From a virus: a DNA stretch of 21,541 bases. Location: IMG/VR virus record IMGVR_UViG_3300020580_000059, positions 1-21,541 of that record. One strand, 5' to 3'. Below the pieces are notes generated by a model that did not search any database, had not been told where the DNA came from, and was given only the letters and a program-made list of their open reading frames with translations. The position numbers and the translations under genes are program-made. Each line of letters begins with the position of its first letter. The first letter of the stretch is position 1. Below are positions 2 through 20,502 of this stretch, one piece after another.

Positions 2-307
2 CAGATGGCCGAGTGCAGCCCGCATGTTGGCCTGTTCGAGGAATTGAGCGAAGGCAAAAAGGCGGGCGCTCTTGGTGAGAAATTCCTGCTGCCGCCCTTT
101 ACTGTGCTGAATGCACGGGAAGGGTGGTGGCAGGACCGCAAGCGAGCGTGGCTGGAACTCGGCATTAAGAGCGAATTGGGCCGAGGCGGCGATGCCGCGC
201 CTGGAGGCTCGAAACAATGCGCTATTGATCCGGTTACCGGCAAAATTTGCCGTGCGGATAGTCGTGGACGCCCCATTCCAGGGACCGTAGCAAAGGTACA
301 TCAATGA
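2..307 (+). CDS. Phage DNA methylase-type protein, C-terminal part or detached N-terminal half (5'-partial)
   Basis: The frame is open to the left edge, so the gene probably begins outside the window; ATG at 5 is the first internal candidate. The diagnostic stretch is PPFTVLNAREGWWQDRKRAW followed by LELGIKSELGRG (about residues 31-61 from ATG 5). I recall this block from many phage DNA-modification methylases, where it sits between a ParB-like region and the methyltransferase domain. Here the protein stops about 40 residues later, after a Gly/Pro-rich tail, and a methyltransferase domain appears only 1.8 kb downstream (2193-3047). The stop overlaps the next start in an ATGA (304-307), so translation is probably coupled. 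The function of the block is unknown to me; a role in methylase specificity or DNA binding is inference. Confidence 0.6.
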   Translation, partial: QMAECSPHVGLFEELSEGKKAGALGEKFLLPPFTVLNAREGWWQDRKRAWLELGIKSELGRGGDAAPGGSKQCAIDPVTGKICRADSRGRPIPGTVAKVHQ

Positions 308-1458
308 ATGATTGGACCCATGGCTATCCGCTCGAACAACTAAAAACTTATGCCGGCATTTTCAAAGATGCACATAAGCCGTTGGTCTTTGGAGCATTTG
401 GTCTCGTCAAGGAACGCGATATTGCTCAGGCCTTGGTTGATGATAATTTGCTGCAAATAGGCGATCCGCCGCAAGCTTTGGCAATTGTTAGCTGCTCCAA
501 GCGGCCGAGCAAGCGCGAAGATTTTGCAAAGCGGGAATATATTGTTGCTGCGGAATCGTTACAGATCAAAGCGTTAGCCGGCAATTCTGCTGAAGCGGTG
601 AACGACATAATGGTGCTTTGCCTAGAACGAGCAAAGGGGTCGCCGATCTGGGCGGAAATTTTCGAAGAGGATCCGTTTGCTCGCCAAGCAATGGTAGACT
701 TTACCTATGTTACTACCAAAATTTCAGCAGGAGGTGAAGTCAAGGGGATTTATTTATACGGCAGTAAGTCTCCGCTGCCGCCTTTAAGCGCGGCTGAGAG
801 CGCTGCATTGGAAATTCTTGAATTACAGTTTCTGAAAAAAGAGAAGCTTGCAGCAATTTGCAACGAGTGCCAGCGCTTCGATAAGTACTGGACACAGCAT
901 TACAGTACATACAATAAACGAAAAAGCTGGACCTCCTTTGCGTTGCGTGGGTATTCAGACGATCCTTCTTTTATCATAAAGCCCAGCGAAATGTCGAAAA
1001 GCTGGAAAGAAGAGAATGCTGCCGTGTTGCAGCAGTCTACGCGCTGGACTGCTGCGACAGAATATTTTCCCGTGACCATGGAAGCAGTGGAGCGCCTTGG
1101 AAAAGGAAGCGAGCTAGACCGGGTGCGTTTCATGCGGCTGCGCGCCAAAGATGGTGAACTCTCGCGACATGCCGACATTACCGATCATGAAGCAGGTGTG
1201 GCAAACGGCTGCATTGCTCGTTTGCATGTTCCAATTCGAACCAGCAACGCAGTATCTTTCTACGGTTGGGACACACGAGGCCGTAAAATCGAGAAAAAGC
1301 TTCCCGAGGGAAGCTTATGCTATCTGGATCAACGTAAGCCGCATGCGGTCAAGAATACCGACCTTTTGCTGGATAGGATACACTTGGTAATAGATCTTGT
1401 CTCGAACGAACGGTTACGAAAAACTATTGGCGATGTATTTACAAAAAGTAACCAATAA
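304..1458 (+). CDS. GNAT-like domain fused to Asp/Asn beta-hydroxylase-type 2-oxoglutarate/Fe(II) oxygenase
   Basis: This 384-aa protein has two apparent parts. The C-terminal part (about 270-370) carries the Fe(II)/2-oxoglutarate signature of the aspartyl/asparaginyl beta-hydroxylase family: H289-A-D291 (in RHADITD), the strand RLHVPIRT, H347 (in KPHAVKN) and R358 (in DRIHLVIDL), with spacing normal for the family. The N-terminal part (about 20-150) looks like a divergent acetyltransferase fold: a strand ALAIVSCSK, then IWAEIFEEDPFARQAM, typical of the last GNAT strands. That part is tentative. The enzyme would oxidise a carbon using O2 and 2-oxoglutarate. Its position between a methylase fragment, a PLP enzyme and a methyltransferase suggests a DNA base or a base adduct as substrate rather than a protein; this is inference. 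Start chosen by the ATGA overlap with the upstream gene. Confidence 0.72.
   Translation: MNDWTHGYPLEQLKTYAGIFKDAHKPLVFGAFGLVKERDIAQALVDDNLLQIGDPPQALAIVSCSKRPSKREDFAKREYIVAAESLQIKALAGNSAEAVNDIMVLCLERAKGSPIWAEIFEEDPFARQAMVDFTYVTTKISAGGEVKGIYLYGSKSPLPPLSAAESAALEILELQFLKKEKLAAICNECQRFDKYWTQHYSTYNKRKSWTSFALRGYSDDPSFIIKPSEMSKSWKEENAAVLQQSTRWTAATEYFPVTMEAVERLGKGSELDRVRFMRLRAKDGELSRHADITDHEAGVANGCIARLHVPIRTSNAVSFYGWDTRGRKIEKKLPEGSLCYLDQRKPHAVKNTDLLLDRIHLVIDLVSNERLRKTIGDVFTKSNQ
1297..1316. repeat. Perfect 9-bp inverted repeat with a 2-nt centre, inside the oxygenase gene
   Basis: AAGCTTCCC (1297-1305) and GGGAAGCTT (1308-1316) are perfect reverse complements separated by GA. It lies in the codons for residues KLPEGSL of the oxygenase. 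It could form a tight hairpin, but it may be chance because the residues are ordinary for this strand of the fold. Confidence 0.6.
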
Positions 1459-2134
1459 TATTACTGTTTTACGCGATGACCTGCTCGAAGGAGGCAGCAA
1501 AACGCGTTTCTTGCCGTATCTTATCAAAGGTGCCGATGAAATTGTATTTGCAGGACCGTTCTGCGGCGGTGCGCCATTGGCGCTCTCGGTTCTCGGCCGG
1601 CAAAGCGGTCAAAAGATCACGTTGTTTTATGCAAAGCGCAAGCTTTGGCATCGCAAGCAGCTTGCTGCCAAGAAGAACGGAGCGAATATTATTGAGGTAA
1701 CACCCGGATACATGACTGTGAATCAATCGCGTGCTCGCACTTATGCCAAGGAAGCTGGGGCTTTGTTCTTGCCGTTGGGTTTCGATGTACCGGCCGCCGA
1801 GGAACCATTTGTGGAATTCATGGAAAAGGTACGCAAGAAAATAGACAAGGTGGATCAGGTTTGGTGCTGTGCCGGCTCCGGCATGCTGGCACGCTGCCTC
1901 GGCAACGCTTTTCCTGAATCCGAAATATGTGCGGTAGCCATAGGCTTGGCGTCACGGCACGAGGCGCAATCGTTCGATTCGAATATTCGAATGATTAAAA
2001 GCCGCTATCGTTTCGAACAGGAGACCAGAGCAGAGTGTCCATTTCCATCGTGTGCTAATTATGATCGCAAAGCGTGGGAGGTATGTGCTAAAGAGGCCAA
2101 AGGTAAGATACTTTTTTGGAACGTATCATCATGA
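1433..2134 (+). CDS. PLP-dependent enzyme, fold type II (ACC deaminase / D-cysteine desulfhydrase-like), phage type
   Basis: The 233-aa product starts (from ATG 1433) with RDDLLEGGSKTRFLPYL. The pattern resembles the lysine region of the ACC deaminase/tryptophan-synthase-beta superfamily, so K23 is the likely PLP Schiff-base lysine. Further support is AGPFCGGAPLAL (substrate-loop position) and a Gly/Ser loop CCAGSGMLAR where the PLP phosphate would bind. It is shorter than cellular relatives (about 330 aa), so one subdomain is reduced. A TTG at 1397 in the same frame is possible, but ATG 1433 gives a smaller overlap (26 bp) with the oxygenase gene; neither has a strong ribosome binding site. 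The stop overlaps the next ATG (2131). A role in supplying or trimming an amino-acid-derived group on a modified base is inferred from context only. Confidence 0.68.
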   Translation: MYLQKVTNNITVLRDDLLEGGSKTRFLPYLIKGADEIVFAGPFCGGAPLALSVLGRQSGQKITLFYAKRKLWHRKQLAAKKNGANIIEVTPGYMTVNQSRARTYAKEAGALFLPLGFDVPAAEEPFVEFMEKVRKKIDKVDQVWCCAGSGMLARCLGNAFPESEICAVAIGLASRHEAQSFDSNIRMIKSRYRFEQETRAECPFPSCANYDRKAWEVCAKEAKGKILFWNVSS

Positions 2135-2196
2135 CAAAGAAACCAGATGCGCGTACTTTCGGTCAGGATATTATGCGGGGGGGGAACATGTTATGA
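2131..2196 (+). CDS. 21-codon ORF, probable detached N-terminus of the downstream methyltransferase
   Basis: ATG 2131 overlaps the stop of the PLP gene in ATGA and would encode MTKKPDARTFGQDIMRGGNML before TGA at 2194. RTFGQD-(L/I)-MRG followed by EHV is, as I recall, a conserved start of this phage methylase domain. Here the EHV appears in the next frame, directly after a run of eight G (2177-2184). Reading the run with one extra base, or by a -1 slip, joins this ORF to the 2193-3047 frame. I therefore read it as the true 5' end of the methyltransferase, disconnected by the G tract, rather than an independent peptide. Confidence 0.45.
   Translation: MTKKPDARTFGQDIMRGGNML
2177..2184 (+). repeat. 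Homopolymer G8 tract at the methyltransferase 5' end
   Basis: Eight consecutive G follow ATGC at 2173-2176, just before AACATG. The run sits where the ORF from 2131 must change frame to reach the methyltransferase. It could be a phase-variable slippage tract, a programmed -1 slip site, or a homopolymer length error in the assembly. Confidence 0.9.
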
Positions 2197-3047
2197 AGAA
2201 GCACAAGCAAAGTGCTTCGCTGAAAGATGGGCTTACATGGTCTACTACTGATCCATACCGCTCAACAAAGTCAACACGATCTTTTAATACTCAGGATTGG
2301 GTTCAACAAAAGATCGTTGAGGGAGATATCTCTGGCGGACTTGCCAGCGAGCAATCAGGTACCTCCATATTCGACCCGGTGCTGTGCGAGCTTACCTACC
2401 GTTGGTTCTGCCCAAAAAATGGATTGATACTTGATCCTTTTGCAGGCGGCTCAGTGCGCGGCATTGTTGCTGCCAAGATGGGCCGCCGTTATATCGGCAT
2501 CGATCTGAATAAACGGCAGCTTGAAGCGAATTATTTACAGGCTGAGGTAATCTGTACTAACGGTGATCCTTTTCCTGATTGGCGGCAAGGCGACTCGCGT
2601 AATATTGCCGAGCTGGTATCGGAACAAGCAGATCTTATTTGGTCTTGCCCTCCGTATGCTGACCTAGAGCGCTATTCAGATGATCCTCGTGATCTTTCTA
2701 CATTGAAATACGAACAATTTTGCGATGCCTATGCTGAAATTATCAAAGCAACGTGCTCGCGCTTGAAACAGGATCGATTCGCCTGCTTTGTAGTCGGTGA
2801 TGTTCGCGATAAGGATGGATTCTATTACGGCTTCCCCTGGCACACCATTGCTGCGTTCGAGATGGCGGGGCTGCGCCTTTATAACGAAGCAATACTCATA
2901 ACCGCTGTAGGATCGCTGCCGATCAGAGCTGCACGTCAATTCGAGTCCGGAAGGAAGTTGGGCAAGACTCATCAAAACTACCTTTGCTTCATCAAAGGCG
3001 ATCCCAAGAAAGCAACAAAGGCCTGCGGACAGCTTGAAGAGTCTTGA
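2193..3047 (+). CDS. DNA methyltransferase, N6-adenine/N4-cytosine type, atypical CPPY motif
   Basis: The 284-aa reading from ATG 2193 (which overlaps the TGA of the 21-codon ORF) has the SAM-binding motif I LDPFAGGSVRG (80-90), the acidic loop YIGIDLNKRQLEAN (100-113) and a motif IV-like SCPPYADLERYSDDPRDL (151-168). The order SAM motif then PPY fits the alpha/gamma layout. The residue before PPY is Cys, where amino-methyltransferases normally have D, N or S. SGTSIFDPVLCELTYRWF (55-72) is a conserved block of this phage family. In relatives I recall, this domain is fused behind the NAREGWWQDRKRAW block, here encoded separately at 2-307. The frame is also open upstream to 2052, but that part overlaps the PLP gene and lacks family features. 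The true N-terminus may be at 2131 (see the G8 tract). Confidence 0.85.
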   Translation: MKKHKQSASLKDGLTWSTTDPYRSTKSTRSFNTQDWVQQKIVEGDISGGLASEQSGTSIFDPVLCELTYRWFCPKNGLILDPFAGGSVRGIVAAKMGRRYIGIDLNKRQLEANYLQAEVICTNGDPFPDWRQGDSRNIAELVSEQADLIWSCPPYADLERYSDDPRDLSTLKYEQFCDAYAEIIKATCSRLKQDRFACFVVGDVRDKDGFYYGFPWHTIAAFEMAGLRLYNEAILITAVGSLPIRAARQFESGRKLGKTHQNYLCFIKGDPKKATKACGQLEES

Positions 3048-11469: not shown

Positions 11470-11585
11470 AACAAAGGACGGGGTGGGAATAACGATCCGA
11501 TGGATGACCACAGAAGGGAGGTGAGGCAGAAGACATTGAATCAATGAATCTCTCAAAACATCTCAAGAGGAAAGGTACTTTCAAA

Positions 11586-12221
11586 ATGAAGAGTTTGCTG
11601 CTTACCGGTGCGGTACTGCTTGTGTCAGCTGGTCTGGCTCAGGCTAACGATATCTCTGGATCGCTCTGGGCTGTTCCAGAGAGTGTGGCCCAAGATGCCA
11701 CTCCCGGCAACGTTCCGGTAACGACGCCAGACGTGACGTTTAATGTCAATGGCTCCGGTTTGGACTTCAACGCAACCAACGCTACCGTTGCAGCGTGGCT
11801 GGCCAGCGGCGGTGCCACCGGTATCGTCGAGAATACGGCTGGGACTCTTTCCAGTCGGATGGACAATAACGTCACTGGGCATCTGTTTGACTTCATGGGC
11901 GATGTTACAGTCACAAACGGGGAGACTTTCACAGTCACGCATGATGACGGTCTTACGCTGATCATCGGCGGGTTGACTGTGATCAATGCCCCTGGTCCAA
12001 CGACTCCGACTATTACTACGGAGACCTACACCGGGCCGAGCGGCAATCTGCCGTTCAATCTGGTGTATGCGGAGTGCTGTGAGGGGCCGGCTGTTCTTCA
12101 AATTAGCCTGCCTCTGGAACCGGTTCCTGGGCCTATCGTCGGCGCAGGACTCCCAGGCCTTGTAGCCGGCTGTATGGCTCTACTGGGCCTCGGCCGCTTC
12201 CGTCGCCGAAGCTCTATCTAG
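11586..12221 (+). CDS. Secreted PA14-like protein with PEP-CTERM-type C-terminal sorting tail
   Basis: 211 aa from ATG 11586, chosen because it starts a clean signal peptide (MKSLLLTGAVLLVSAGLAQA, cleavage expected after residue 20); an upstream in-frame ATG at 11544 would bury it. The mature part is Thr/Val/Gly-rich. VTHDDGLTLIIGG then NLPFNLVYAECCEGPAVLQI match the DDG core and the last strands of PA14-like beta-sandwich domains. The tail PVPGPIVGAGLPGLVAGCMA, a hydrophobic run, then RFRRR is a tripartite sorting signal of the kind I associate with exosortase-type or related surface anchoring in alphaproteobacteria. Such proteins are bacterial, not virion, so this looks like a moron gene acting at the host surface. 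Host assignment and surface role are inference. Confidence 0.72.
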   Translation: MKSLLLTGAVLLVSAGLAQANDISGSLWAVPESVAQDATPGNVPVTTPDVTFNVNGSGLDFNATNATVAAWLASGGATGIVENTAGTLSSRMDNNVTGHLFDFMGDVTVTNGETFTVTHDDGLTLIIGGLTVINAPGPTTPTITTETYTGPSGNLPFNLVYAECCEGPAVLQISLPLEPVPGPIVGAGLPGLVAGCMALLGLGRFRRRSSI

Positions 12222-14232: not shown

Positions 14233-15159
14233 ATGACTACTCTTCCTGAACCAATACGACATACCATAGAGGCTATATGGAAAGCCTATGAAGCTCGCAG
14301 TCGAAGCGGTGACAGCCTTGGCGTGCCGATGTCACAAGCTGGTAATGAATGTGCAAGAGCGATTTGGTATGCCTTTCGTTGGACATGTTCTTCTGAATCT
14401 CCGAACGGTCAGCGCCAGCGACGTTTCGAGACCGGCTTGCTCGAAGAAGAGCGCCTGTTGAACGATCTCGAAGCAGCAGGAATCAAGGTAGAGCGCCTGG
14501 ATCCCGCTACAGGCACCCAGTTCAGAGCAGCGCTAGCCGATGGCTGGCTGCGCGGCAAGCTCGATGGCAAGGTTATCGGCTTGCCGGAGGCTTCGCTTAC
14601 CGAACATGTTGTCGAATGCAAATCGCATAACCAGAAATCTTTCGATGACTTGAAAAAGAAAGGGCTAAGACAGTCGAAGCCTGATCATTGGACACAATGT
14701 CAGTTGTATATGAAAGCGACGGGGCTGCAGCGGTGCCTTTATCTGGCAGTCAATAAAAACGATGATGCGCTTTACAGCGAGCGCATCGAATATGATAAAA
14801 CAGCTGCCGAGCAGCTGGAAAAGCGAATTGAGTGGGTAGTAAAGGCCGATCAGGCTCCTCCCAAGCTATGGGAAAGCTGTATTCATCAATGCAACTGGTG
14901 TTCTGCACGAGGAGTTTGCCACGAAGGCGCATGGGCACGAGTCAATTGCCGCACATGCATCGAGGCGCGCTTTCTGCCGGGAGCAGTGGTACGCTGCGCG
15001 CTGTGGGACAAGGAGCTTAGCTATGATGAGCAGCAACGCGGATGCGAGAAGCATCTTTTCTTGCCAAGCCTAGTTCCCGGAGAACAGATCGATGCCGATG
15101 AAGAACATCGAACGGTAAGCTATAAGCTGCATGATGGATCGGTGTGGGTGGATAAATGA
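14233..15159 (+). CDS. PD-(D/E)XK nuclease, Cas4/RecB-like, probable iron-sulfur protein
   Basis: 308 aa. Nuclease core: GKLDG (D111), VVECKSH (E128, K130) and HWTQCQLYMKATG (Q157) give the D ... E-x-K ... Q set of the RecB/Cas4 branch. C40 (GNECARAIWYAFRW) together with C220, C223 and C229 (HQCNWCSARGVC) has the spacing of the four cluster ligands in Cas4 and AddB, so a [4Fe-4S] cluster is likely. A second Cys group (NCRTC, VVRCALWDK, RGCEKH) suggests a zinc ribbon in the C-terminal part. Likely role: processive exonuclease that makes single strands for the Sak4/DUF669 pair. The last codons GSVWVDK lie in repeat E. The stop overlaps the next ATG in ATGA. Confidence 0.82.
   Translation: MTTLPEPIRHTIEAIWKAYEARSRSGDSLGVPMSQAGNECARAIWYAFRWTCSSESPNGQRQRRFETGLLEEERLLNDLEAAGIKVERLDPATGTQFRAALADGWLRGKLDGKVIGLPEASLTEHVVECKSHNQKSFDDLKKKGLRQSKPDHWTQCQLYMKATGLQRCLYLAVNKNDDALYSERIEYDKTAAEQLEKRIEWVVKADQAPPKLWESCIHQCNWCSARGVCHEGAWARVNCRTCIEARFLPGAVVRCALWDKELSYDEQQRGCEKHLFLPSLVPGEQIDADEEHRTVSYKLHDGSVWVDK
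15134..15153 (+). repeat. Junction repeat E, copy 1 (20 bp; copy 2 at 16656-16675)
   Basis: ATGGATCGGTGTGGGTGGAT encodes the last residues of the PD-(D/E)XK nuclease. An identical copy at 16656-16675 is stranded inside a chimeric remnant 1.5 kb downstream. Confidence 0.92.
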
Positions 15160-16589
15160 GGGCTTACTACAATGAAATCGATCCCTACTGTATCGCTTGG
15201 CTGCGAAATCTTATTTCTGCCGGATGCATTGCGCCAGGAGACATTGACGAGCGCAGCATTGCCGACGTACAACCTGATGATTTACGAGAATATACCCAGT
15301 GTCATTTCTTTGCCGGTATCGGCGGTTGGTCCTATGCGTTGCGACTCGCAGAATGGAACGATAATAGACCAGTATGGACAGGAAGCTGTCCCTGTCAGCC
15401 GCTTTCGAGCGCCGGACAGCACAAAGGTCATGCCGACGAACGACATCTCTGGCCCGCTTTTTACCGACTCATCGCCGAGTGCCAGCCTACAGTACTTTTT
15501 GGAGAGCAGGTTGCGAGCAAAGATGGGCGTGAATGGCTCGCTGCTGTTCGATTTGATCTGGAAGCACTGGAATATGCTGTCGGGGCCGCAGATCTGTGCG
15601 CTGCGGGCGTCGGGGCGCCGCATATCCGACAGCGATTGTGGTTCGTGGCCGACGCCGTGCCAACAGGATGGACCGAAAGGAGGCTCGGCGCAGGGAACGA
15701 ACAGGTTACCAGGAGCGGCTGCGCTCGCGAGCTGGCCGACACCGATGGCCGGCACGCCAGCGCAGAAGGGCTACAACGAAGCTGGGAACACCGACAGCAG
15801 CCGGAAGACGGTGAACATGGTGAGCTGGACGACGCCGCAATCGCGCGACGGAGCGCACAGCCGCAGCGGCCAACCCGAACGGACGGGCGGCAGACGGCGG
15901 AACCTGGACGACTACGCGACGCTGGCGAGCTGGAGCACGCCGCGCGCGAACAAGAGGGGTTTCCCAGACGCTCACGGCAGTCACGAGGAACCTATTGGTC
16001 CAATTGCGACTGGCTCCCCTGCGTCGACGGAAAAGCGCGGCCGGTTGAATCCGGCACACAGTCGATGGCTGATGGGTTATCCGGCGCAATGGGACTTATG
16101 CGCTCCAATCCATCGATTGCCAAGGAAATCATAAATGCCGCGCAAAGCGTTGGACTTACAGACCAAATCTTGTCTGCGTTGCGGAGCGGTCATAGAGCGC
16201 CAGAGATTTGGCAATCGCTTGGAAGATGCATCGGCGTTTCGGAGGCGGCAATTTTGCTCGCTTGCGTGTGCGAACACTCGGGGCAACTGGGGCGATTCTT
16301 CTACGGCCAAGCATCGAGAGGCGAGCAAGATGGCAAAGCCGAGCTGCGAGAAATGCGGCAAACTGCACCGATGGCTGCACGTTCACCACTTGGATGGCGA
16401 TTATCGGAACAATTCGCCGGAAAACTTGCAGACGCTTTGTCCTTCTTGCCACAAGCTCGCACACTCGCCTCGTTCAACGGGTTTCCGTTAAGCCATGGGA
16501 TTCCCGGCCGAGTGGGACGCCTGCGCGCCTACGGCAATTCGATCGTGCCGCAAGTTGCGGCCGAGTTCATAAGCGCATTCATGGATTGA
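15156..16589 (+). CDS. C5 cytosine DNA methyltransferase with an internal in-frame insertion
   Basis: 477 aa. Motif I HFFAGIGGWSYAL (50-62), catalytic motif IV GSCPCQPLSSAGQ with C80, motif VI GEQV (E117), motif VIII QRLWFVADA (159-167) and motif X AYGNSIVPQVAAEFI (near the C-terminus) are all present, so a complete cytosine-5 methyltransferase can be read. MRAYYNEIDPYC fits the normal start of this phage subfamily, and ATG 15156 overlaps the nuclease stop. Between the target-recognition region (ends about residue 310) and motif X lie about 135 residues unlike the family. Most coincide with an HNH gene in the +1 frame (16135-16491), and they are bracketed by a duplicated segment encoding GLSGAMGLMR and GIPGRVGRLR. 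Whether the enlarged protein is active is open. Confidence 0.88.
   Translation: MRAYYNEIDPYCIAWLRNLISAGCIAPGDIDERSIADVQPDDLREYTQCHFFAGIGGWSYALRLAEWNDNRPVWTGSCPCQPLSSAGQHKGHADERHLWPAFYRLIAECQPTVLFGEQVASKDGREWLAAVRFDLEALEYAVGAADLCAAGVGAPHIRQRLWFVADAVPTGWTERRLGAGNEQVTRSGCARELADTDGRHASAEGLQRSWEHRQQPEDGEHGELDDAAIARRSAQPQRPTRTDGRQTAEPGRLRDAGELEHAAREQEGFPRRSRQSRGTYWSNCDWLPCVDGKARPVESGTQSMADGLSGAMGLMRSNPSIAKEIINAAQSVGLTDQILSALRSGHRAPEIWQSLGRCIGVSEAAILLACVCEHSGQLGRFFYGQASRGEQDGKAELREMRQTAPMAARSPLGWRLSEQFAGKLADALSFLPQARTLASFNGFPLSHGIPGRVGRLRAYGNSIVPQVAAEFISAFMD
15172..16134 (+). CDS. Long overlapping ORF in the +1 frame of the C5 methyltransferase (WPTP-type)
   Basis: 320 codons fully inside the methyltransferase gene, from ATG 15172 with GAGGG 9 nt upstream. 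It shows features unlike random frame noise: W-(P/T/S)-T-P at 159-162, 188-191, 219-222 and 254-257, GSPASTEKRGRLNPAHSRWL (281-300) and MGYPAQWDLCAP (301-312). I recall hypothetical proteins with PTNDxSGPL, LESRLRAKM, WPTP repeats and LNPAxSRWLMG(F/Y)PxxW in many phage and alphaproteobacterial genomes. I also see that these blocks map onto conserved methyltransferase blocks (ADERHLWP, QRLWFVADA, the motif X approach). They are therefore either a true overprinted gene or a conserved shadow of the methyltransferase. It ends one codon before the HNH start, in the same frame. Confidence 0.4.
   Translation: MKSIPTVSLGCEILFLPDALRQETLTSAALPTYNLMIYENIPSVISLPVSAVGPMRCDSQNGTIIDQYGQEAVPVSRFRAPDSTKVMPTNDISGPLFTDSSPSASLQYFLESRLRAKMGVNGSLLFDLIWKHWNMLSGPQICALRASGRRISDSDCGSWPTPCQQDGPKGGSAQGTNRLPGAAALASWPTPMAGTPAQKGYNEAGNTDSSRKTVNMVSWTTPQSRDGAHSRSGQPERTGGRRRNLDDYATLASWSTPRANKRGFPDAHGSHEEPIGPIATGSPASTEKRGRLNPAHSRWLMGYPAQWDLCAPIHRLPRKS
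16072..16106 (+). repeat. Diverged duplicated segment flanking the HNH gene (copy 2 at 16495-16529)
   Basis: 35-bp segments at 16072 and 16495 match at 25 of 35 positions (shared blocks ATGGG, CCGGC, TGGGAC, TGCGC) and are 423 bp (141 codons) apart. Both read in the same methyltransferase frame, and in the +1 frame both read MG(Y/F)PA(Q/E)WD(L/A)CAP. The HNH gene lies between them. Confidence 0.75.
16135..16491 (+). CDS. HNH homing-type endonuclease nested in the C5 methyltransferase gene
   Basis: 118 aa in the +1 frame of the methyltransferase. ATG 16135 directly follows the TAA of the 15172 ORF and has AAGGA 8 nt upstream, so it has its own initiation site. HNH core: LHVHHLDGDYRNNSPENLQT then LCPSCHKLAH, giving H84/H85, N97 and H106, with structural zinc pairs C71-x2-C74 and C102-x2-C105. 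A further N-terminal Cys set (C13-x2-C16, C41-x3-C45) suggests a zinc-ribbon DNA-binding module. Phage HNH proteins of this type nick or cut a recipient allele and spread by gene conversion. Its placement near motif X of a methyltransferase, between duplicated flanks, fits a homing insertion. Confidence 0.82.
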   Translation: MPRKALDLQTKSCLRCGAVIERQRFGNRLEDASAFRRRQFCSLACANTRGNWGDSSTAKHREASKMAKPSCEKCGKLHRWLHVHHLDGDYRNNSPENLQTLCPSCHKLAHSPRSTGFR

Positions 16590-16892: not shown

Positions 16893-18485
16893 ATGCTTAC
16901 CCTCAGACCATACCAGCGCGCTGCCCTTGATGCGCTCTATCAATACTGGGAACATCAGGGCTGCAACGGTCTTATCGTATTGCCTACCGCCAGCGGCAAA
17001 TCGCTGGTTATGGCCGCCTTGTGCCAGGAGCTGTTAAAGCTCTATCCCAAGCTGCGTATTGGCATAGTCGCGCATATCAAGGAGCTGATCGCACAGAATT
17101 ACAGCGAACTCAAGACCCTGTGGTCCGAAGCGCCGGCTGGCATTTATTCGGCAGGTCTTGGGTGCCGCGATACAGATCAGCGCATATTGTTTTGCGGTAT
17201 CCAATCGGTTTTTGACAAGCTGGAGCAATTAGGAAGCTTTGATTTGATAATAGTTGATGAGGCGCATCTCATCAGTAAAAACTTTCAGACAATGTACGGA
17301 AAATTCTTTGCTGCCGCGCGCCAGCGTATGCCGGATCTGCGCATCGTCGGGCTTACTGCGTCGCCATGGCGACTCGATTCCGGCAGGCTGGATCAAGGCA
17401 AGGATCGCATCTTTGATAAGATTGTCTATGAGATCAATGTAAAGCGCCTTATCGACCAGGATTATCTCTGCCCCTTGATAAGCAAGGCTACGATCACGGC
17501 GCTCAATGTTGCAGGCGTGCGCAAGCGCGGCGGTGAATTCATTCCCGGCGAGCTGGAAGCAGCGGTTGATAAAGATCCTATTACACGCGCCGCTGCCAAA
17601 GAGATCGTGCAATATGGCGAAGGCCGGCGCTCCTGGCTGGTCTTCTGCGCAGGCATCAGCCATGCTCGGCACGTTTGCGAGGAATTGTGCGCGCTGGGCG
17701 TGCAGGCTTCCTGCGTCTTTGGCGAGACTTCCAAGGCCGAGCGGGATCAACTGATTCTGGACTTCCGCAACAGCAGGATCAAATGTCTGGTAAGCGTCAA
17801 TACCCTGGGGACTGGCTTGAACGTGCCGCAGGTTGATCTAATTGCTTTGCTGCGGCCTACGGCTTCTGCTGGTTTGTTTCTCCAGCAATGCGGACGCGGC
17901 TTTCGCAAGGCGATTGGGAAGAGTAATTGCCTTATTCTAGACTTCGCCAGAAATACCGCACGCCATGGTCCGGTCGATACCATAACCGCGTCTACTGCCG
18001 GCAAGGAACGAGGCGACAATGCGCCATTGGTTAAGGAGTGCCCGCAATGTGCATCGATCATTCCGCTTTCCAGCAAGGAATGTCCGGATTGCGGTTATGT
18101 ATTTCCATGCGCGCTTTCAACGCACGAAGCCGCAGCTGACAGCGAGCGTCATATTCTTTCGCAGGCAGTATGGTTAAATGTACGAAAAATGACGTGCTTC
18201 AAGCACATCAAGACAGGCTCGTCGCCAAGCCTGCGGGTAGAATATGAATGCGGCAGTCTGCTTGTACACAAAGAATGGATCTGCCTGGAGCATTCCGGCT
18301 ATGCGCGCAGCAAAGCCGAGCATTGGTGGCAAAAAGCAGGCGGCGGCAGCGCGCCTCGGAATGTCGATGAGGCGCTGCGGCGCAGGAACGAGCTGATTGC
18401 GCCGACACAAATCAAGGTGCGGCAGGTCGGCAAGTATTTTCAAGTCGAGGAAAGACGTTACATTGGTCAAGATCATCCAAGGTGA
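16893..18485 (+). CDS. SF2 DEAD/DEAH-box helicase with zinc ribbon
   Basis: 530 aa from ATG 16893; codons upstream to 16833 overlap the small gene. Q-type motif LRPYQRAALDAL (4-15), motif I PTASGKS (31-37), motif II DEAH (122-125), motif III-like TASPWR (155-160), motif V VNTLGTGLNVPQVD (302-315) and motif VI QQCGRGFR (331-338) are all intact, so it should be an active ATP-dependent translocase. C383-x2-C386 ... C397-x2-C400 forms a zinc ribbon after the second RecA domain, followed by a C-terminal domain of about 130 residues typical of phage replication helicases of this type. Probable role is fork or recombination-intermediate unwinding. The 3' end overlaps the next gene by 23 bp. Confidence 0.92.
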   Translation: MLTLRPYQRAALDALYQYWEHQGCNGLIVLPTASGKSLVMAALCQELLKLYPKLRIGIVAHIKELIAQNYSELKTLWSEAPAGIYSAGLGCRDTDQRILFCGIQSVFDKLEQLGSFDLIIVDEAHLISKNFQTMYGKFFAAARQRMPDLRIVGLTASPWRLDSGRLDQGKDRIFDKIVYEINVKRLIDQDYLCPLISKATITALNVAGVRKRGGEFIPGELEAAVDKDPITRAAAKEIVQYGEGRRSWLVFCAGISHARHVCEELCALGVQASCVFGETSKAERDQLILDFRNSRIKCLVSVNTLGTGLNVPQVDLIALLRPTASAGLFLQQCGRGFRKAIGKSNCLILDFARNTARHGPVDTITASTAGKERGDNAPLVKECPQCASIIPLSSKECPDCGYVFPCALSTHEAAADSERHILSQAVWLNVRKMTCFKHIKTGSSPSLRVEYECGSLLVHKEWICLEHSGYARSKAEHWWQKAGGGSAPRNVDEALRRRNELIAPTQIKVRQVGKYFQVEERRYIGQDHPR

Positions 18486-20502
18486 TTGCAGGGACGTGCT
18501 CGCCGGCATGGCGGAGGAGTCGGTGCATTGCTGCGTGACATCGCCTCCGTACTGGGGCCTCCGCGACTACGGCATTCCGCCGACGATCTGGTGCGGTGAT
18601 CCGGCGTGTGCGCATATTTGGCGAGACGAGATAACTGCGCGTCCGAACGCGGGCGGCGGAGATTTGACCGTCGATGGCGGCAAGATCAAGCAGCGAGAAG
18701 CCTCGGAAATCGAAGGACGAATAAGCACAAGCTCATTCTGCCAGCGCTGCGGCGCATACAAGGGCGCACTCGGGCTGGAGCCGACGCTCGATCTTTTCGT
18801 GCAGCACGTGGTCGAGGTGTTCCGCGCGGTGCGGCGCGTGCTGCGGAAAGATGGAGTATGTTTCTTAAATCTCGGTGACTCATATTCTACCGGGGTGTCG
18901 AATGCGTCTGATTTTCTCGCGGCATCGCTGAAAGGCCACATTCTCTTCTATGGTGGCGCCGACCCGCGTGGACGTTCCTCCGAGCGTATTAACGTACTGC
19001 TTTACGACAAGGCCGCGCCAAATGACGTATTCGAGCCGCTTTTTGCTTCGCAGCGGATAAGCATCAAAAACGGGCAAGATCACCTGTGCGAGATCGGAGG
19101 CTTTTTCGACCCTCCAATTTTGTGCCTCACGAGTGTTGCCTGCCTTCGCAGGAGATTTCCACAAGACGCCAACACCAAGAGAGTGATGGATTTGCCGGAG
19201 AACGTCGGCATCATCGTCACGGCAGGAGATTTGCACGCCGACGCGGCGCTCAGAAAGGCCGCAGCGTTCACGATAAAAAACGGTAAGGCAGCCTTCGCCA
19301 TCAAAATAGCCGGAGAACCAATAGCCGAAAGCGTCCCCGGCGACGTACCTGTTTGGGATGCCATCACGCTCAATTCTGGCCCGGAAGGCGCTGCGCAGAT
19401 CGATGCCGTAGATCAGCCGATTGCGCTCCTTGATGGTTCCAAGTTTCTCGCCCGTCGCCGCGACAATTTCCGCATACGAGAAGCCGGCCACGAGCAACTC
19501 ACGCTCGCGTTGCATTGCGGATGTCAGATTAGTTTCCTCGGAGTAGCCCATTTATTCGCCTCCAATAACGGTCTTACGCCATATGGGAGAGAATTGGACA
19601 AAGCGCAACGACAAGCGAATGCCAATCGGGCGAAACAAGAGCTTGGCATTCCCGATCTAGTCAAACGGGCGCTCATGGAGGACGGGTGGATTTGTCGGCA
19701 AACCATCATCTGGTCAAAAAAAAATCCGATGCCCGAAAGTTGCACCGACCGCTGCACCAAGTCGCACGAGTTTCTGTTCTTGCTCACGAAGTCGGCGCGG
19801 TATTTTTACGATGCCGAAGCGATCAAGGAGTCGGGCAGTGTGACAAGCCATGGCGGCGGCCGAATCGACAAAAATCATACCTATAGCGAGGGTGCCGGAC
19901 GAAGAGATTTCAAGAGCGTGGCCATGCAAAACCCACACCCAGCCGGGGAAGCCGGACGCAACAAGCGCAGCGTGTGGGAGATCGCCACCGCGCCGTTTCC
20001 CGAGGCGCATTTCGCCACCTTTCCGCCCGCGCTGATCGAGCCGTGCATCAAGGCCGGCACCAGCGCGCGCGGCTGCTGCGCCAAGTGCGGCGCGCCGTGG
20101 GAGCGGATGACGAGCAAGATCACCACATTTCAAAGCGGTTCCGGTGCGGCTGGCAAGACGGCCGAAGAGGTCAACGCCAACGGCAAATGGGCCGGCATTC
20201 AGCACGGCAAGAATATCAAACTTGGTCCAGTCAATTCGACGGTCACGACAGGCTGGCGTCCGACCTGCACCTGCGACGCCGCTGTCGTCCCGTGCACCGT
20301 GCTTGACCCGTTCGGCGGCGCCGGCACTACTGGGTTGGTCAGTAAATGGTTGAATCGAAGCTCTATCCTAATTGAAATGAATCCGAAATATATTACAATG
20401 ATGAAACTTCGGCTCAACGAAAAAGCAGCGCGGCACGAGCTGGAAGAATACGAAAAAGAAAAGCAGGAAAAAAGCGGCCAAAAGCCGGTCTGGCTAGATT
20501 AG
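18463..20502 (+). CDS. DNA methyltransferase (N4-cytosine/N6-adenine, TSPPY type) interrupted by an antisense LAGLIDADG gene
   Basis: 679 aa from TTG 18463 (MVKIIQGDCRDVL), chosen because family members start near (V/I)xIIxGD; the frame is open upstream inside the helicase gene. Motif IV VTSPPYWGLRDYG (25-37), zinc-type Cys groups (C44, C49; C93-x2-C96), FLNLGDSY (134-141), QTIIWSKKNPMPESCTDR, KSHEFLFLLTKSARYFYDAE, a second Cys group (CCAKCGAPW) and SAM motif LDPFGGAGTTGLVSKWL (614-630) give a complete beta-class enzyme. Relatives are about 400-450 aa. The excess here is residues about 142-365, exactly antisense to an endonuclease gene (18880-19551). The frame stays open through that block, so either a large insertion is tolerated or the enzyme is broken. 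Confidence 0.85.
   Translation: MVKIIQGDCRDVLAGMAEESVHCCVTSPPYWGLRDYGIPPTIWCGDPACAHIWRDEITARPNAGGGDLTVDGGKIKQREASEIEGRISTSSFCQRCGAYKGALGLEPTLDLFVQHVVEVFRAVRRVLRKDGVCFLNLGDSYSTGVSNASDFLAASLKGHILFYGGADPRGRSSERINVLLYDKAAPNDVFEPLFASQRISIKNGQDHLCEIGGFFDPPILCLTSVACLRRRFPQDANTKRVMDLPENVGIIVTAGDLHADAALRKAAAFTIKNGKAAFAIKIAGEPIAESVPGDVPVWDAITLNSGPEGAAQIDAVDQPIALLDGSKFLARRRDNFRIREAGHEQLTLALHCGCQISFLGVAHLFASNNGLTPYGRELDKAQRQANANRAKQELGIPDLVKRALMEDGWICRQTIIWSKKNPMPESCTDRCTKSHEFLFLLTKSARYFYDAEAIKESGSVTSHGGGRIDKNHTYSEGAGRRDFKSVAMQNPHPAGEAGRNKRSVWEIATAPFPEAHFATFPPALIEPCIKAGTSARGCCAKCGAPWERMTSKITTFQSGSGAAGKTAEEVNANGKWAGIQHGKNIKLGPVNSTVTTGWRPTCTCDAAVVPCTVLDPFGGAGTTGLVSKWLNRSSILIEMNPKYITMMKLRLNEKAARHELEEYEKEKQEKSGQKPVWLD
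18880..19551 (-). CDS. LAGLIDADG homing endonuclease, antisense inside a methyltransferase gene
   Basis: 223 aa on the minus strand, the only convincing minus-strand gene here. ATG at 19551-19549 is preceded by TTGGAGGCGAATAA, an excellent binding site. An N-terminal helix-turn-helix-like part (FSYAEIVAATGEKLGTIKER, 24-43) leads to the catalytic helix FSGYFDGEG (79-87, the LAGLIDADG motif). The C-terminal PLRSKKRLEYVIWRGLVV (166-183) is the conserved helix seen in single-motif phage and organelle enzymes, which act as homodimers. Its codons are aligned with those of the sense methyltransferase, so it must avoid TTA, CTA and TCA to keep that frame open. The stop lies in the codons of the conserved NLGDSY motif, a typical homing site in an essential-looking sequence. 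Confidence 0.85.
   Translation of the reverse strand: MGYSEETNLTSAMQRERELLVAGFSYAEIVAATGEKLGTIKERNRLIYGIDLRSAFRARIERDGIPNRYVAGDAFGYWFSGYFDGEGCLTVFYRERCGLSERRVGVQISCRDDDADVLRQIHHSLGVGVLWKSPAKAGNTREAQNWRVEKASDLAQVILPVFDAYPLRSKKRLEYVIWRGLVVKQYVNTLGGTSTRVGATIEENVAFQRCREKIRRIRHPGRI

Follow-up and report, generated by a model that had tools for sequence, protein, structure and literature searches.

What could be the function of four tightly packed genes at one end of a viral contig that encode a ParB-like tail, a GNAT-oxygenase fusion, a pyridoxal phosphate (PLP) enzyme, and a predicted DNA methylase? The genes lie in IMG/VR virus record IMGVR_UViG_3300020580_000059, positions 1-21,541. This whole stretch of 21.5 kb is referred to as the window. 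An initial annotation had put the four genes forward as a candidate DNA hypermodification operon. We read them as a phage module for post-replicative hypermodification of DNA bases, and we put the probability of this class of function at about 0.7. The module probably makes and hydroxylates an amino-acid-like substituent on the base. The gene set, its conservation, the predicted folds, and the active-site residues are shown here and bear the annotation out in part; the order of steps, the base, and the group installed on it are inferred. Sequence comparison excludes a chance origin, because the gene set is conserved across many viral contigs and recurs in dozens of environmental relatives. No description of the four-gene set was found in literature searches that left out a 2013 base-modification survey. 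Its novelty is unproven, and the conserved module is probably an undescribed variant of phage DNA hypermodification.

The open reading frame (ORF) listing of the window places all four genes on the + strand, at 2-307, 304-1458, 1397/1433-2134, and 2052-3047. The proposal that they are translationally coupled agrees with the sequence, where the ORFs, residues, and overlaps are all present. Genes 1 and 2 are joined by an ATGA at 304. Genes 2 and 3 overlap by 26 nt if gene 3 begins at ATG 1433, and ATG 2131 overlaps the stop of gene 3.

Gene 2 (304-1458, +) encodes two domains, as seen in its AlphaFold2 model and family matches. A GNAT-fold domain (aa ~1-160) is followed by a 2-oxoglutarate/Fe(II) oxygenase of the Asp/Arg-hydroxylase type (aa ~163-375). 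The full model, built with 30 homologues, has a pLDDT of 94.9 and a pTM of 0.90. The predicted active-site residues of the oxygenase (1168-1377, +) are H289 (1168-1170), D291 (1174-1176), H347 (1342-1344), and R358 (1375-1377). They are invariant in alignments of 15 and of 30 members. The Asp_Arg_Hydrox profile (PF05118) matches 26 of 30 family members, at best with 4.8e-17; the window's own gene 2 falls below detection in that search. With its iron triad and arginine, its family profile, and its fold, the C-terminal half is a 2-oxoglutarate/Fe(II) oxygenase, as first annotated. By fold it matches L-proline cis-4-hydroxylase (4p7w, Z 16.6), a nucleoside-antibiotic hydroxylase (Z 15.8), and AspH (Z 15.6). 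By sequence, the best match among solved structures is again L-proline cis-4-hydroxylase (3.8e-6), a free-amino-acid hydroxylase.

The N-terminal domain (304-783, +) was modelled separately, since fold searches with the whole gene 2 model returned mostly oxygenases. Alone, it reaches a pLDDT of 95.3 and aligns with 2pc1 over 141/165 residues (Z 12.0, root-mean-square deviation 3.4). GNAT enzymes make up nearly all of its 50 best structural matches. The model thus assigns a GNAT fold to this half, where an acyltransferase-like N-terminus had been suspected. The R/Q-x-x-G-x-G/A acetyl-CoA loop was not seen, by eye, in the alignment of gene-2 GNAT domains. In gene 2 itself, the loop from strand 4 to the following helix reads ALAGNSAEA.

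Gene 3 (1433-2134, +) encodes a short protein of 233 aa; TTG 1397 is an alternative start. It had been called a small fold-type-II PLP enzyme, and the evidence agrees. Gene 3 matches PHROG 7093 (1.7e-34), and in the PDB its profile hits include cysteine synthase, ACC deaminase, and D-cysteine desulfhydrase. Its match to Pfam PALP (8.4e-7) is under that family's cut-off, and one relative passes at 4.5e-12. The predicted Schiff-base lysine (K23, numbered from ATG 1433, at 1499-1501) lies within GGSKxR, which aligns with the corresponding stretch of ACC deaminase. K23, G148-S149-G150, Y210, and K213 are invariant in a 38-member alignment. A Schiff-base lysine and a glycine-rich phosphate loop together mark the predicted product as a fold-type-II PLP enzyme.

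Gene 4 (2193-3047, +; ORF open from 2052) encodes a predicted DNA methylase of the N4/N6 type, in line with the annotation of the fourth gene as a methyltransferase (MTase). It matches Pfam N6_N4_Mtase above the cut-off (2.3e-12), PHROG 12517 (2e-96), and the ParB-MTase family PHROG 498 (2e-78). Motif I (DPFAGG, 2433-2450) precedes motif IV (CPPY, 2646-2657). Motif IV of N4/N6 amino-methyltransferases is usually (D/N/S)PP(Y/F/W), and CPPY departs from D/N/S at the first position. This C173-P-P-Y is invariant in 25 of 25 family members.

Gene 1 (2-307, +), which is open at the 5' edge of the window, had been labelled part of a methylase. It instead encodes the C terminus of a ParB-like protein, with a conserved linker (PPFTVLNAREGWWQDRKRAWLELGIKSELGRG), and it matches PHROG 15396 (ParB-like partition nuclease, 2e-12). 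Its identity to the ParB tails of relatives is mostly 55-76%. In fused proteins of relatives, it corresponds to the segment that joins ParB to the MTase. By the whole-domain profile of gene 4 and the linker in gene 1, gene 4 is a member of the phage ParB-MTase family PHROG 498/12517.

Linkage of the genes and a second home for gene 2

Scans of viral contigs found the PLP gene at 116 distinct loci and gene 2 at 50. This MTase lies within 2.5 kb of the PLP gene in 68 of the 69 distinct PLP loci that have more than 3.2 kb upstream. Where gene-2 loci have adequate flanks, both MTase and PLP genes are present in 27 of 35, and the MTase only in 2 of 35. These counts are not independent draws, as loci of this kind supplied the PLP queries and many of the contigs are relatives of one another. 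The annotation had named a lack of co-occurrence as grounds to abandon the operon; the genes do co-occur, far more often than chance would give.

The genes also keep close company. With redundant loci included, the orders are MTase-PLP (70 loci), MTase-gene 2-PLP (62), and MTase-PLP-gene 2 (4), all on one strand, and the median spacing between neighbours is 50-84 nt. The window's order, gene 2-PLP-MTase, is unlike these commoner ones. Two Erythrobacter phages, ZS04 and R6L, carry a PLP domain inside the MTase, inserted after motif I and before CPPY. In another contig (L038), the fusion is C-terminal and its PLP domain divergent. Of 48 loci anchored on the MTase and having 1.5 kb of sequence on each side, 24 had neither PLP gene nor gene 2.

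Gene 2 has a second genomic home. In Mycobacterium phage LilMcDreamy, gp1 to gp5 can be read as a ParB, a TET/JBP-like oxygenase, ADDT (PF18724, 2.7e-12), a gene-2 homologue, and Ploopntkinase3 (PF18751, 1.4e-71). The homologue, gp4, is related to gene 2 over both halves (E 1.2e-35; TM 0.83 in a comparison of models). A second contig (L071) encodes ParB, a TET-ADDT fusion (ADDT PF18724, 8.3e-14), gene 2, and the kinase (PF18751, 1.5e-22); the TET part of this fusion resembles LilMcDreamy gp2. Two more (L073 and L075) hold parts of the ParB/TET/ADDT/gene 2/kinase operon. Across these operons the PF18751 kinase matches are 1.4e-71, 1.5e-22, and 3.6e-22. Two LilMcDreamy gene labels deserve a remark. 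The gene for gp2 (L001, 855-1787), labelled queuine tRNA-ribosyltransferase, more likely encodes a TET/JBP-type oxygenase (HRD...H...R, weak PF12851 match). That for gp5 (L001, 3761-4333), labelled terminase small subunit, encodes Ploopntkinase3 (1.4e-71) and is likely misannotated.

The window, nine IMG/VR relatives of 24-74 kb (possibly incomplete contigs), and phages Mae-JY30 and ZS04, both complete, gave no match to ADDT (PF18724), kinase (PF18751), or TET (PF12851). The thymidine ADDT pathway was therefore set aside for the window and its relatives. CmoA was likewise not detected in the window, the nine contigs, or these two phages, and the CmoA/carboxy-SAM route, where SAM is S-adenosylmethionine, was set aside for the contigs tested. 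Gene 2 occurs in ADDT operons, and ADDT, kinase, and TET are missing from the four-gene contigs examined, so one back end seems to serve two different front ends. PLP-less gene-2 homologues in three contigs adjoin other N4/N6-type methylases (L076, 7148-7762; L068, 6887-7600; L078, 8921-10546). These neighbourhoods suggest several partner front ends for gene 2.

Relatives of gene 2 in viruses were found by an alignment-based scan; a scan with the single protein returned none. The annotation had also counted a grouping of the oxygenase with protein hydroxylases among the grounds to abandon the operon. In a tree with cellular Asp/Arg hydroxylases from the same scan, and without protein hydroxylases such as AspH, the phage gene-2 oxygenases split from the cellular homologues with 100/99 support. 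A cellular origin of gene 2 was considered and rejected: a genome scan gave 220 relatives, and of the 80 kept, 79 have the oxygenase domain alone, without the GNAT part. The only one with both GNAT and oxygenase parts was an Elusimicrobia contig, L078. One gene-2 homologue (L008) contains an intein (about 1705-2452) at a conserved oxygenase site, between QHY and SSYNKR. By eye, this intein includes a segment resembling a homing endonuclease of the LAGLIDADG type.

Proposed function and its alternatives

How might these enzymes act together? The ParB-like protein would position or regulate the complex on DNA. The methylase-fold enzyme (gene 4) would transfer an SAM-derived group to the base, as its family suggests. 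The PLP enzyme would make or rearrange an amino-acid-like substituent at that site, a role consistent with its linkage, its insertion in the MTase, and its cofactor class. The GNAT-oxygenase would then hydroxylate the substituent, and perhaps acylate or hold it; its family and second genomic home point this way. The added group would guard phage DNA against restriction enzymes and further nucleases. The likely order of steps is MTase, PLP enzyme, gene 2, because MTase and PLP genes without gene 2 are far commoner than MTase and gene 2 without PLP.

A role in modification is supported by the presence of gene-2 homologues in TET/ADDT/kinase operons. ADDT adds an amino acid on DNA. The chief ground for expecting an amino-acid-like group from the four-gene set too is an analogy: by established ADDT chemistry, the ADDT operons that share gene 2 should yield an amino acid on the base. 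A more specific version, possible but doubtful, is that the CPPY MTase, rather than being a methylase, transfers to the base a bigger, amino-acid-bearing portion of SAM (for example, 3-amino-3-carboxypropyl), and that the PLP enzyme, sometimes nested in it, processes the group on the spot. If so, amino-acid-decorated DNA could be made without hydroxymethyl-deoxyuridine or carboxy-SAM, and would have a GNAT-oxygenase back end in common with thymidine hypermodification.

Several observations weigh against assigning the operon to hypermodification. ParB-MTases are often found on their own, and gene 4 may simply methylate. In gene 3, the SGN/SNxT-type substrate-carboxylate loop is replaced, leaving the substrate uncertain. 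The GNAT domain of gene 2, without its acetyl-CoA loop, may be non-catalytic. In the second home, the match of LilMcDreamy gp2 to TET/JBP (PF12851) is weak and under the family cut-off. Finally, the window is a fragment, so further pathway genes could lie beyond its ends.

The enzymes could instead produce a small molecule in modified form, for example an SAM analogue or a modified nucleotide, for use by the MTase or a polymerase, in which case neither PLP enzyme nor oxygenase would act on DNA. The oxygenase does resemble free-amino-acid hydroxylases, and in L072 gene 2 stands beside RecA- and RuvC-like genes with no MTase nearby. A PLP domain inside the MTase fold of two phages fits poorly with this route, as does the occurrence of gene 2 in ADDT operons, where the amino acid is joined on DNA. 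There is a precedent in phage CmoA, which makes carboxy-SAM for the DNA enzyme CmoX (PMC12783734), but no CmoA was found in the contigs tested, and we regard a small-molecule product as unlikely.

Simple methylation of A or C against restriction, with the PLP and oxygenase genes as unrelated neighbouring cargo, would account for the 24 of 48 MTase-anchored loci that have neither gene, and the window does hold three further MTases. Cargo would not be expected to sit beside an MTase in 68 of 69 PLP loci, at a median spacing of 50-84 nt, with nested and C-terminal PLP-MTase fusions and invariant catalytic residues. We therefore hold this explanation to be very unlikely. It is more improbable still that gene 2 hydroxylates or acetylates a host or phage protein and sits among modification genes for regulatory reasons. 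The protein hydroxylases AspH and PHD2 match the oxygenase fold, and the GNAT domain has many N-terminal protein acetyltransferases among its matches. Yet the phage clade stands apart from cellular homologues (100/99, in the tree lacking AspH-type protein hydroxylases), and gene 2 accompanies DNA-modification genes in two unrelated operon types.

DNA-base hypermodification thus remains our preferred assignment. Known DNA hypermodification mostly begins at hydroxymethyl or carboxymethyl handles. The widespread coupling of MTase and PLP enzyme, sometimes in one polypeptide, points to another type of DNA handle, and the shared GNAT-oxygenase suggests an exchange of such back-end enzymes among pathways. 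Culturable carriers include LilMcDreamy (on M. smegmatis), Mae-JY30, R6L, and ZS04, and the module may offer new enzymes for DNA labelling.

Poly-G tracts and other features of the window

The methylase gene is there, but a clean start is not. The conserved leader motif, ARTFGQD(L/I)MRGEHV, is divided between two frames at a run of eight G (G8; 2177-2184, +), the sole G or C run of at least 7 in the window. Frame translations place the first half of the motif in a leader ORF (2131-2196, +; MTKKPDARTFGQDIMRGGNML, followed by a stop). Because the motif is split in this way, the usable start of gene 4 is likely ATG 2193, which overlaps the leader stop.

Such tracts recur in relatives, with strong enrichment in the stretch from the ParB tail to the MTase. 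In counts covering 147-150 distinct ParB-MTase loci, there are 27 runs of G8 or longer in the 85 kb upstream of MTase motif I, compared with 4 in 1,107 kb elsewhere. No run of C8 or longer occurs in the same 85 kb. Resampling with nearest-neighbour composition preserved, a composition that the runs themselves raise, yields a mean of 6.0 such G runs and a maximum of 14. The ParB tail and the MTase share one open frame in 0 of 11 loci with a run of G8 or longer between them, and in 65 of 107 with runs shorter than 7. Tracts of G8 or longer are found in 18 of 147 loci; among 38 gene-2 loci, the window is the only one. Eleven other loci (L161, L164, L170, L171, L173, L175, L177, L207, L210, L217, and L218) have tracts of G8 to G13, often two or three per locus. 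A reasonable guess is slippage-based switching (phase variation) or programmed slippage at the tracts. A homopolymer assembly error or simple gene separation is also possible.

The window also encodes a PolA-type polymerase, a clamp-like processivity factor, and the three further methylases. One MTase ORF of 701 aa (18397-20502, +) has an insert that is open on the opposite strand (18880-19551, -), with a LAGLIDADG-like motif (GYWFSGYFDGEG). This may be an antisense homing endonuclease inside the methylase gene. A C5-cytosine methylase ORF (15156-16589) is overlapped in another frame by a typical Dcm-like phage segment and an HNH-type ORF (15172-16134, 16135-16491), an arrangement that suggests reshuffling of the gene by an HNH element. 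The ORF at 11544-12221 has a signal peptide and, by eye, a PEP-CTERM-like tail (VPGPIVGAGLPGLVAGCMALLGLGRFRRR), which is unusual in phage and may hint at the host group.

Comparison with known systems

Mu Mom is a GNAT-fold base modifier, and the annotation had invoked it as an analogy. The GNAT fold in a DNA-modification setting is indeed shared, whereas the gene-2 domain is fused to an oxygenase. A sequence relationship did not hold up: hhalign gives a probability of 0.4% (E 0.17) for homology to Mom, and gene-2 GNAT domains have no match to PHROG 1384, which Mom itself matches. With the PF05118 enzymes L-proline cis-4-hydroxylase and AspH, gene 2 shares the fold and the HxD...H...R motif, but it has the GNAT fusion and forms a separate phage clade. 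Gene 3 resembles ACC deaminase, D-cysteine desulfhydrase, and cysteine synthase in its GGxKxR lysine, GSG phosphate loop, and Y-x-x-K near the end. It differs in being ~90 residues shorter than ACC deaminase, with the carboxylate loop replaced, and in being linked or fused to a DNA methylase.

Thymidine hypermodification operons take the hydroxymethyl-deoxyuridine (hmdU) route, with TET/JBP or hmdU synthesis, a P-loop kinase, the amino acid:DNA transferase ADDT, and tailoring enzymes. They are, like the window's operon, linked to ParB, and the gene-2 homologue is a probable tailoring enzyme in LilMcDreamy, in L071, and partly in L073 and L075. The four-gene set has an MTase and a fold-type-II PLP enzyme, with no detected ADDT, kinase, or TET. 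The CmoA/CmoX/CmoY system of phage S-B43, which makes 5-carboxymethylcytosine-glycine, offers another parallel: an SAM-dependent DNA enzyme installs a handle, and later enzymes decorate it (PMC12783734). ParB proteins are frequent neighbours of that system as well (PMC12783734). The window operon differs in having no identified ligase and, in the contigs tested, no CmoA. CmoX is a C5-MTase with SPPC, whereas gene 4 has an N4/N6-type fold with CPPY. The closest kin of the methylase are the ParB-MTases of PHROG 498/12517, whose two halves correspond to the tail in gene 1 and to gene 4. In the window, genes 2 and 3 stand between these halves, and the G8 tract divides the leader.

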